Shown: positions 3,055 through 18,450 of the stretch, one piece after another
Numbering within the stretch: position 1 is the stretch's first letter
Layout: each line of letters opens with the position of its first letter
Virus record (IMG/VR): IMGVR_UViG_3300024520_000254
Coordinates: 1 to 35,898 of that record
Length of the DNA stretch: 35,898 nucleotides
Origin: a virus
Direction: 5' to 3' (one strand)
Program-made: the position numbers and the translations under genes
The notes under the pieces: generated by a model
What the model was told of the DNA's origin: nothing
Database searches by the model: none
The model's input: the letters and a program-made list of their open reading frames with translations, nothing else

Positions 3055-3099
3055 CAAAAGTACTATTAATCTGTGACAAAATCAAATTCTTTATCACAA
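3055..3099 (-). promoter_or_regulatory. Early promoter with overlapping operator O1
   Basis: On the minus strand TTTG (3083-3086), a 20-bp spacer and TACTTTTG (3055-3062) match the Bacteroidota consensus TTTG-N19/21-TAnnTTTG exactly. Overlapping the -33 element is an inverted repeat, TTGTGAT-N15-GTCACAG (plus-strand halves CTGTGAC 3071-3077 and ATCACAA 3093-3099). The same repeat with the same 15-bp spacer occurs at three other promoters here. It drives the gene at 2761-3021 and onward. The site is embedded in the 3' end of the HNH-like gene. Confidence 0.7.
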
Positions 3100-9232: not shown

Positions 9233-10135
9233 TCACAAATATAGTTGTTTTGTGATAGAATCCAAATTAAATTCATTGTTTTTTATCACCAAATAAAGGA
9301 GGGATAGTTTTTTTGCAATCTTTTTGGCCTTGATCCCTGCCAACCTATCGCTTTCTTTTGCCGCAACTTCACCCATTAACCGGATTTTTCCGCGTGTGGC
9401 CACATCTTTTGTGTTTTCGCTCGACACTTCTTGCCTTGCCAGTTGTTGCGCTTCCTCCCATATCGGTTTCCATACTTCACTTACATCAATGATCCCCTTC
9501 TTCCGCAATGCGTCGAAAATATAGGATGGGCAGTCCCGCCAATCTGTTTCCGGGTCTTCTTTTAGCTTCCGAAGCGTCACGACCAATTGTGGCCAGAAGT
9601 TCCGCCGCATCCTTTCTGCTCTTTTTTCATGCTCCTGGCGCTCCACTGTGTCGTGCTGCTCTTTTATGTAATTGGCCACGGCTTGAGCCTTGTGGGCTTT
9701 CCATGCGGACAGGACGGCGGAAAACGCCTTGGCTGTCATCTTCCCCCCGTACATTTCGCCCCGGCCTTTTTTATCCCCTAATTCCCCGGCAGAATGCAAC
9801 CTAAATGCAATCCAGATTTCGGCAACGGACATGTTTTTAAATTCATTCTGCAAGGCTTTTACACATTCCCGTTGGACGATAGCCGACACCTCTTTGTCCC
9901 CTCCATAAGCCATTGCGATTTTTTTGATCTCGCTTGCTAAATAGGCATTTGTAAAGTCACCTTTTGGCAGTTTCAATACTACCCTTGACTTGTTCCTGAT
10001 GATGGAAGCCAAATGATTTGTTTTAAAATCCAAGTTCCTGCAAGCCAATTCAATGATCCTGCCATCAACTGGAAAATCTTCTACACTAACGGGCAAGCTT
10101 TCTTTTTTCGGTTTTACAACTTCTGTTGTCATCAT
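9233..10135 (-). CDS. Putative replication-associated protein, 300 aa
   Basis: ATG 10135 to TGA 9233, 7 nt after the DnaD-like gene. A central block reads MSVAEIWIAFRLHSAGELGD and then MYGGKMTAKAFSAVLSAWKAHK. This resembles proteins found next to replication initiators in Bacteroidota phages, with a short conserved 'E-I-x-x-A-F-R...Y-x-G-x-x-x-A-x-x-F-x-x-V-L-x-A-Y' block. The rest is helical and highly charged, and ends with a basic helix (AGIKAKKIAKKLSLLYL). A helicase-loader or initiation-accessory role is inferred from the position directly after the winged-helix initiator gene. No Walker motif is present. Confidence 0.66.
   Translation of the reverse strand: MMTTEVVKPKKESLPVSVEDFPVDGRIIELACRNLDFKTNHLASIIRNKSRVVLKLPKGDFTNAYLASEIKKIAMAYGGDKEVSAIVQRECVKALQNEFKNMSVAEIWIAFRLHSAGELGDKKGRGEMYGGKMTAKAFSAVLSAWKAHKAQAVANYIKEQHDTVERQEHEKRAERMRRNFWPQLVVTLRKLKEDPETDWRDCPSYIFDALRKKGIIDVSEVWKPIWEEAQQLARQEVSSENTKDVATRGKIRLMGEVAAKESDRLAGIKAKKIAKKLSLLYLVIKNNEFNLDSITKQLYL
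9236..9266 (-). promoter_or_regulatory. Consensus promoter with operator half-sites
   Basis: Minus-strand TTTG (9263-9266), a 19-bp spacer and TATATTTG (9236-9243) match the Bacteroidota consensus exactly. GTCACAA (9232-9238) covers the -7 element, and TTGTGAT (9250-9256) lies in the spacer. Both match the half-sites of the full operators elsewhere but in outward arrangement. The promoter is inside the last codons of the replication gene at 9233-10135 and drives the 129-aa gene. Confidence 0.65.
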
Positions 10136-10142
10136 TTTGCAT

Positions 10143-11159
10143 TTAATACGAATTTTCTTCCCTTAACATCTTTAATGCCTCTAAAGATTGTTGGTTTGAT
10201 TCACTTGCCACTTGCTCCTTGGATTTCTTTTTGTCCCCGGTGTACCCGTTTGAAAGGTTTTTTTTAATATCCACATAGATAGATTCAAAATTACTTACGA
10301 AATTTGTTGGCGTGAATTTATCCATGTACCAACAATTTGTAAGATTAGAGGCTGTTTGAAGGAACATTGACAAAGCCCGGTCAACAAACGTTTTGTCCCT
10401 ATGGTATATTTGCCCGGAAGATTTAGCCTTGTCCCTTAACATTCTCATAAGATTTCCTAATTGCCCTATCTCCTTTGCATTCCAGTACACGCCCTCAGAC
10501 CCGTTGACCGTCAATCCGCAATTTCTTTGCCACTGCCTGTAATTTTCATCAAACATGGCTTTTGCTGAAGTAAAGACGCCGGGAGGCCACTTTTCTTTTT
10601 TGTCCTTTTTTCGGGGAATATTTTTTGGTTTTTCTTCTTTGTTTTTAAATAGTGTTTGTGTTTTTCCATTAATAGATTTTTTTGGTGGAGTATGGGGCAA
10701 TTCGTCAGAATTGAAGTTTACTTCTAATCCTTGGTTATTATTATCTATACTAGTACTATTATTTGTCGGATTTATTTCCGAGTTGGATTCGGAAATTTTT
10801 CCGAGTTCATTCGGATTTATTTCCGAGTCTCGGAAGTGCCCGTCTTTATTAGTGTTTCTCCATAATTTACCCTTTTCCGCAATGGCAATACAGTCTTTTG
10901 AAGTTATCTTTTTGTAAAAGATTACACCTTTTTTTTCAAGGCTCTTAAAGTGACGGTAAATTGTGTCAGGTTTATCTGTTACTACTGGGGCTTCTTTGAG
11001 TACTTTATACCTACTGATAAAGTAATAATCAATGTTTTCTACGGTGACCCTTTCCGCCCACGTTGGTACATTGAAAAGGAAATCAAAAACAATTGCTTCA
11101 GCCGGATTCAAGCCCCATTCAATAGCCTTTACCTGATTGATTGAAAAATTATAAGTCAT
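10143..11159 (-). CDS. Replication initiator / replisome-organiser-like protein, 338 aa
   Basis: The N-terminal 90 residues form a winged helix: NPAEAIVFDFLFNVPTWAE, then YYFISRYKVLKEAPVVTDK, then TIYRHFKSLEKKGVI. The last segment is the recognition-helix/wing pattern of phage replisome organisers and DnaD-type initiators. A long Asn/Ser/Lys-rich linker (residues about 110-200) follows, and then a helical C-terminal domain from about 205. It probably binds the phage origin and recruits host replication proteins. The start is ATG 11159. The transcript begins at the promoter 11321-11352 and carries a structured leader RNA (11184-11269), suggesting control at the RNA level. Confidence 0.76.
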   Translation of the reverse strand: MTYNFSINQVKAIEWGLNPAEAIVFDFLFNVPTWAERVTVENIDYYFISRYKVLKEAPVVTDKPDTIYRHFKSLEKKGVIFYKKITSKDCIAIAEKGKLWRNTNKDGHFRDSEINPNELGKISESNSEINPTNNSTSIDNNNQGLEVNFNSDELPHTPPKKSINGKTQTLFKNKEEKPKNIPRKKDKKEKWPPGVFTSAKAMFDENYRQWQRNCGLTVNGSEGVYWNAKEIGQLGNLMRMLRDKAKSSGQIYHRDKTFVDRALSMFLQTASNLTNCWYMDKFTPTNFVSNFESIYVDIKKNLSNGYTGDKKKSKEQVASESNQQSLEALKMLREENSY

Positions 11160-11183
11160 GGGTACTCATTTTAAGGCACAAAA

Positions 11184-11269
11184 AAGCCGTTCAATGTTTG
11201 ACCCAGTTGCCTCTAAGGTTGCATCCCTCCCACCGTGAGGTCGACAACCGGGTCAAGCACGAACGGCTT
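11184..11269 (-). ncRNA. Structured leader RNA upstream of the replication operon (unassigned class)
   Basis: Four nested helices are exact inverted repeats: AAGCCGTTC/GAACGGCTT (11184-11192 with 11261-11269), TTGACCC/GGGTCAA (11198-11204 with 11250-11256), GTTG/CAAC (11206-11209 with 11245-11248) and CCTC/GAGG (11210-11213 with 11237-11240). They enclose a 23-nt apical loop with a GGGAGGG run. On the minus strand the closing helix is followed by a T-run, as in an intrinsic terminator. Seven loop bases (11218-11224) are complementary to leader bases 11298-11304, a possible pseudoknot. The region lacks a coding frame and is not a tRNA. Confidence 0.68.
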
Positions 11270-11320
11270 GAATAGTGGTTATTTCCGCCTTTTTTCCATG
11301 CAACTTTCCAAAAGACAACA

Positions 11321-11352
11321 CAAAAGTAGTCATTCAATCACAGATTTGCAAA
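11321..11352 (-). promoter_or_regulatory. Consensus promoter of the replication operon
   Basis: Minus-strand TTTG (11349-11352), a 20-bp spacer and TACTTTTG (11321-11328) match the consensus exactly. A CTGTGAT half-operator lies in the spacer, with the 15-bp distance kept but a poor second half. The promoter is in the last codons of the methyltransferase gene. Its transcript would have a leader of about 155 nt containing the structured RNA before the initiator ATG at 11159. Confidence 0.65.
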
Positions 11353-11974
11353 TATTGATTTCTGAATCCCTTTTGACATCCTGTTTTTAGCAGCATTATA
11401 ATAATCTTCATCCATTTCAAACCCCACGTAATCAAACCCCATTGATTCACAGGCAATTAAACTGCTGGCACTGCCAACATGTGTGTCTAAAATTAAATCA
11501 CCTTCTATTGCGTATGTTCTTAAAAGCCATTGATAAAGGGCAACTGGTTTTTGTGTGGGGTGTATTGTTTTTTCGTTTCTTATCCTTTTGTCAGCATGAT
11601 TGAATCCATAACTATCTAAATTTATATTAATTGCAACTTTATCAAAACTCCCCCATGCCAATTCAAAATCTGAAAAATTTGGAACTGGATTTCCTTTTTG
11701 CCAACAAATCCAAAAACGTGAAACGGGTATCATATCAGTAAAGTAATTACCCCCCCCATATTATTTGATTTTTACTAACCCTAAACACTTGATTGAAATA
11801 TTCTTGATTCGGTCTATCATTCAGATAGACCGAATCGCCTACACCAAACCTAAAATTAAAATGTTGCCCCCCTCCATATGGGGGATCAATAACAGCAAGG
11901 TTAAAGTAATTATCAGGATAAGAAGGAAGCCCGTTTCCTATGCCCATACAATCGCCCAAGATGAATTTTCCCAT
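11338..11974 (-). CDS. DNA methyltransferase (D-P-P-Y type), frameshifted at a G8 tract
   Basis: Two adjacent frames together make one beta-class DNA methyltransferase. The first (11974-11747) has FILGDCMG and the catalytic motif VIDPPYGGG and ends NQIIWGG-stop. The second continues as NYFTD and carries HPTQKPVALYQWLLRTYA, LILDTHVGSASSLIA (SAM-binding motif) and YVGFEMDEDYYNAA. The join is a run of eight G (C8 at 11750-11757 on the plus strand); seven would restore a 211-aa protein reading IIWGGNYFTD. Such phage enzymes methylate adenine N6 or cytosine N4, often to evade restriction. The shift may be phase variation, a true mutation or a sequencing error. Confidence 0.85.
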
Positions 11975-16783: not shown

Positions 16784-17069
<286 letters not shown>

Positions 17070-17089
<20 letters not shown>

Positions 17090-18405: not shown

Positions 18406-18450
18406 CAAATGTAGTTCCATTTTGTGACAATTCCAAATGTTTTGTCACAA
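18406..18450 (-). promoter_or_regulatory. Early promoter with operator O3
   Basis: Minus-strand TTTG (18434-18437), a 20-bp spacer and TACATTTG (18406-18413) match the Bacteroidota consensus exactly. The -33 element lies in the middle of a perfect inverted repeat, TTGTGAC (18422-18428), 15 bp, GTCACAA (18444-18450). The ATG of the 228-aa gene is 32 nt from the -7 element. This is the best-preserved of the four operators. Confidence 0.8.

Follow-up and report, generated by a model that had tools for sequence, protein, structure and literature searches.

What does the leader do that separates the replication initiator gene from its upstream neighbour in a virus record of 35.9 kb (35,898 nt, the whole of which is called the window here), in which nearly all genes lie on the minus strand? 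The leader is bounded by an N6/N4 methyltransferase gene, which stops at 11338, and by the initiator start codon at 11159; all its parts are on the minus strand, as is the initiator gene behind it (10143..11159), which is assigned to phrog_11527 with a weak match to phrog_678 (replication initiation, O-like). The leader RNA is ~135 nt long, starts at a Bacteroidetes-type promoter and ends in a strong hairpin with a U-run. The promoter, of the -33/-7 type (TTTG-N20-TACTTTTG, 11321..11352), had been proposed in an earlier note on this DNA and is indeed an exact match to the consensus TTTG-N20-TAnnTTTG; the published sigma-ABfr consensus has TAnnTTTG at -7 and TTTG near -33 (PMC7366714). At the 5' end of the transcript lies hairpin P1, GUCUUUU(ggaaaGUUGCAUggaa)AAAAGGC (11287..11316), identified by the minimum-energy fold and by the architecture scan described below. 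Its arms (11316-11310/11293-11287) form 7 bp, including one U-G pair, around a loop of 16 nt that contains the word GUUGCAU (11298..11304). A linker of 17 nt, GGAAAUAACCACUAUUC (11270..11286), leads to the terminator hairpin P3 (86 nt, 11184..11269; -44.5 kcal/mol, z = -5.3), whose fold energy was matched by none of 200 shuffles and whose apical loop carries the word AUGCAAC (11218..11224), complementary to GUUGCAU over 7 bp. The sequence after the P3 stem is a U-run (11180..11185), as in an intrinsic terminator, and its end is 20 nt from the initiator start codon.

The helix arms of P3 that the earlier note had drawn (9 bp, 11261-11269/11184-11192; 7 bp, 11250-11256/11198-11204; then GUUG/CAAC) were all recovered on the minus strand, together with the U-run and the 7-nt complementarity. 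In the minimum-energy fold the fourth of the nested helices claimed there (CCUC/GAGG) gives way to ACC/GGU and GAGG/CCUU. In this fold GAUGCAA, nearly the whole kissing word, is the 7-nt apical loop of P3. The pseudoknot suggested as a possibility is retained as a pseudoknot-type interaction, refined here to a kiss between two hairpin loops. The plus strand folds about equally well, but without a U-run and without a matching promoter. A leader-peptide attenuator was also considered; the mini-ORF (MEKRRK, 11279-11299, ATG at 11299) overlaps the P1 loop, nothing else supports it and it is probably a chance occurrence.

Several features surrounding the leader deserve mention in their own right. 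The upstream methyltransferase (11338-11974) is split in two frames beside a run of eight C (11750-11757), through sequencing error, decay or phase variation. Inside the initiator gene, at 10766-10828, there are three 18-nt repeats of the type TCGGATTTATTTCCGAGT with a spacing of 22-23, possible origin iterons; over this stretch the DNA is ~81% identical to that of the initiator genes in distant phages (FCL-2 and a Mannheimia phage). The other three exact TTTG-N19-21-TAnnTTTG sites of the window (3055-3086, 9236-9266 and 18406-18437) have TCACA in common in their spacers, perhaps an operator. Farther away, a 101-aa reading frame (16784-17089) contains a highly repetitive stretch rich in Gly, Ser, Asp and Tyr.

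The 7-bp kiss of the window is by itself only moderately improbable and would not carry the claim alone. Shuffling the leader and the loop gave a kiss of at least 7 bp in 2% of cases (p = 0.02), and for a kiss inside a P1-type loop the value was p = 0.003-0.03, depending on what is shuffled. No sequence homologue of the window leader was found among relatives searched via the initiator, exonuclease and capsid proteins, none of which reached the leader, and a 14-nt pattern from its 3' arm gave no case with a comparable long-range partner arm in 120 viral-contig stretches. That this is a structured leader RNA of an undescribed kind before replication genes, as the earlier note held, agrees with Rfam 15, in which no family matched the window or the other leaders at gathering score, including the c4 antisense RNA (RF01695); at the E-value level there were only chance matches to microRNA models and a sub-threshold Fibro-purF. 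A description of this architecture was not found in the open-access literature, subscription journals being largely outside the search.

A way to judge such a leader is to look for the same arrangement with other words. Relatives of the window's initiator are encoded by Flavobacterium phage FCL-2, Parabacteroides phage PD691P6 and other phages. A 14-nt stretch (ACAATTAAGATATT) is common to the leaders of FCL-2 and PD691P6; their parts come in the same order, and each leader has a kissing word of its own. A common layout, consisting of a promoter, P1 at the transcript start, a linker that is typically A-rich, a terminator whose loop pairs to the P1 loop, and replication genes, was found in phages of Flavobacterium, Cellulophaga, Croceibacter and Parabacteroides and in metagenomic contigs, with 17 examples counting the window. 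These 17 curated examples, too divergent for automatic alignment, have 16 different kissing words with an own match of 6-9 bp. The match to the own partner averaged 7.35 bp vs 3.46 for swapped partners, and none of 20000 permutations was as good, a contrast that selection explains in part, a match having been a requirement for the scan hits. Not selected for the match were FCL-2, PD691P6 and L199, to which leader position or the core had led, morran and mumin, recognised from their similar DNA, and phi19:1 and L528-L531, located through their downstream content. From its architecture, as read in the sequence, we infer that the window element is one example of this recurrent class.

The architecture scan, for a promoter, P1 and a terminator with a complementary loop, covered 508 loci (4.4 Mb) and returned nine matches scoring at least 34, vs none when this sequence was shuffled once; the window scored 36.5 and contains only this one such match. 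The score alone is no proof, because shuffled AT-rich genomes reached up to 35.5 in a slightly relaxed scan and at least one of the nine matches (L378) lies inside a coding frame. The scan also misses true cases (L199, L529 and, at strict settings, phi19:1), the last being a Cellulophaga phage that has the element with the words GUACGAC/GUCGUAC. The element is common but not general among Bacteroidetes phages, since eight others (PDS1, TCUEAP2, AS73P1, P12024S, 11b, B40-8, P12002S and 6H) gave no convincing match.

The linker is A-rich and ends in UAUU or AUU in the other examples, often as UAAGAUAUU (the best conserved subset). The window linker bears only a weak resemblance to these; its end, UAACCACUAUU, is only loosely similar to UAAGAUAUU, and the 13-nt core (CAATTAAGATATT) is absent from its leader even when three mismatches are allowed. 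Used as bait, this core led to one new example (L199) among 120 viral stretches and to none in 115 genome stretches or 393 Bacteroidales genomes, most matches looking like chance; two further protein baits yielded no example. P1 starts -2 to 6 nt from the promoter element, and in the window 4 nt past it, like in most other examples; its loop word is at +9 to +16 (window +16), and the start codon, where located, at +91 to +161 (window +161). The partner word on the terminator side is at +96 in the window vs +56 to +78 elsewhere, because the P3 of the window is longer. No TAnnTTTG was found between terminator and gene in any example tested, window included. In FCL-2, P2559S and L263 (L501 37475, L504 33901 and L263 340) the terminator has an internal loop GAGUA/GAAA that resembles the loop-E (bulged-G) motif.

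The loop-loop helix could be followed across related sequences in phages of Lillamyvirus and Muminvirus, which carry homologues of the second hemulen element with the kissing words GUGAGACG/CGUCUCAC, GUGAGAAG/CUUCUCAC and GUGGAACG/CGUUCCAC. Among the related Flavobacterium phages hemulen, morran, mumin and snusmum, three of the eight kissing pairs have changed on both sides and none is broken. The covariation score was above 500 of 500 shuffles and all slid controls, with 99% of cells paired over the whole structure, in a set of four distinct sequences to which the window does not belong. Covariation, which the earlier note had proposed to look for, is thus present in the loop-loop helix of other examples; the collections searched contain no sequence homologue of the leader in the window itself. 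P3 keeps G-U pairs, which points to RNA; a DNA cruciform or an origin structure is less likely given these pairs, the promoter spacing and the U-run. In a prospective test the sole bait was the 70-aa protein encoded downstream of the second hemulen element, which picked eight loci. Four of these were hemulen-type phages with an identical protein, and the other four (L528-L531) had proteins 49-67% identical. The element was present in all four of the latter, picked only by their downstream protein, with the words, as listed, CCUCUUAC, GUGGUGG, GCUUCGAC and CCAUCAC. The promoter of L529 reads TAACTTAG, for which reason the scan had passed over this locus, and its element was recognised by eye.

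The genes behind the element are mostly involved in replication (DnaB helicase, primase/helicase, prim-pol and initiation proteins). In L071 a DUF6291 protein is followed by DnaB, in L263 a small protein by a primosomal-type protein and a primase/helicase, and in L031 a small protein by a prim-pol/helicase. Hemulen6-1 has a small protein, DUF6291 and a primase, and Croceibacter phage P2559S a small gene and then a replication initiation protein; behind the first hemulen copy there is an endonuclease gene, and in L199 genes without assigned function. Muminvirus (L515) and Lillamyvirus (L507) share the element with different genes directly behind it, a helicase vs DUF6291 and a primase, so that the element marks a boundary of module exchange. 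In the interval from the terminator to the start codon for the 70-aa protein, L507 (14880-14915) carries a sequence of the type TAGTTATNGGTAATCTTNAAACC with similar counterparts in L263, L517 and L528-L531, perhaps a hairpin for translation control. The downstream proteins gave one partial match in the sampled Bacteroidales and Flavobacteriales genomes (about 300 per search), which suggests that the carriers are mainly non-integrating phages, an empty genome search being weak evidence.

Taken together, the most likely role of the element, and in our judgement a somewhat probable one, is to attenuate transcription in cis at the entry to a phage replication operon. The kissing word is located in the loop of the closed terminator, so the two interactions can coexist, and each should make the other more stable. 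This compatibility favours a cis attenuator in which termination would be the default and a factor would act on P1, the linker or the kiss. RNA polymerase would start at the TAnnTTTG promoter and the 5' end of the transcript would immediately fold into P1; as P3 emerges, its apical loop would kiss the P1 loop, holding P3 closed and favouring release at the U-run. By default a compact RNA some 135 nt long would be made, and the initiator gene would be reached only by polymerases that read through, because there is no other TAnnTTTG promoter between. The fraction reading through would be set by a factor recognising P1, the linker or the kissed junction. We infer that the kiss promotes termination and that such a regulating factor exists; with a stem as strong as the P3 of the window, the kiss may not be necessarily needed.

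Known systems share parts of this design. In the repC attenuator of pT181-type plasmids, attenuation before a replication initiator gene works via loop-loop contacts made by a separate antisense RNA, unlike the element described here, in which the contact is internal and no antisense RNA is visible. In kissing-loop riboswitches (lysine, purine) the loop-loop helix is an architectural part, a likeness to which the possible loop-E motif of some members may be added; unlike them, the leaders have no conserved ligand core beyond the short A-rich linker and their kissing words are not conserved. The CI RNA of phage P4 and the c4 antisense RNA of P1 and P7 (RF01695) are similar in that a phage replication operon leader contains complementary loop and leader segments. 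The outcome in P4 is premature transcription termination; in lysogeny P4 employs a processed antisense RNA that has two targets, seqA and seqC (PMC4825925). Here, unlike in P4, both words are on one short RNA, in P1 and in the terminator loop, and there is no Rfam match. In the Gifsy-1 prophage one promoter gives both the short RNA IsrK, which stops at an intrinsic terminator, and a read-through mRNA (PMC4825925), as would be the case for the leader here. IsrK targets the translation of this read-through mRNA, indirectly raising an antiterminator, and a kissing terminator is not mentioned for it in the portion of that source drawn on here. The class appears to be previously undescribed and kin to phage or plasmid replication attenuators.

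Action in trans, as in the P4 CI RNA, is the main rival to the cis attenuator. The terminated leader would accumulate, and its loops would pair with further leaders of that phage as they are transcribed and shut off the replication genes, so that it would serve as a copy sensor or immunity RNA with the word as specificity tag. Almost every phage has a different word and cross-matches are poor, the position before replication genes is suitable, and P4 and IsrK are precedents (PMC4825925). But both words are already on each RNA, which can therefore pair with itself, and there is no sign of a separate antisense transcript. The near absence of the downstream proteins from the genomes sampled (about 300 per search) fits lysogenic immunity poorly. 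We regard action in trans as improbable.

Somewhat more doubtful is that the leader is a free-standing structured small RNA with a promoter and a terminator to itself, and that the replication genes are transcribed mainly by read-through from upstream. The complete promoter-to-terminator unit, the compact fold with its 5' end buried in P1 and the possible loop-E-like GAGUA/GAAA motif of FCL-2, P2559S and L263 would suit such an RNA, but in every case the first gene of the module follows closely and no further promoter of that type intervenes, a constant placement in different phages that this reading leaves unexplained. Least probable of all, we consider that P3 is the ordinary intrinsic terminator of the methyltransferase gene and the complementarity in the window due to chance. 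That gene ends just upstream, at 11338, the kiss alone has p of about 0.02, the leader is without homologue and the scan score is not decisive (shuffles 35.5 vs 36.5). However, the promoter sits between the gene end and the hairpin, and P1, spacing and position fit the class in the sole such match of the window.

To our knowledge, little is known on how Bacteroidetes phages time their replication. Under the cis attenuator favoured here, a compact unit of promoter, lock and terminator heading unrelated replication modules suggests a shared control point, and the nearly orthogonal kissing words are possible parts for building RNA regulators. More speculatively, and with low confidence, phage RNA switches of this kind might form a widespread class, in which a private loop-loop lock would gate the phage's own replication operon, possibly also in trans, sensing copy number or a coinfecting relative through the word.
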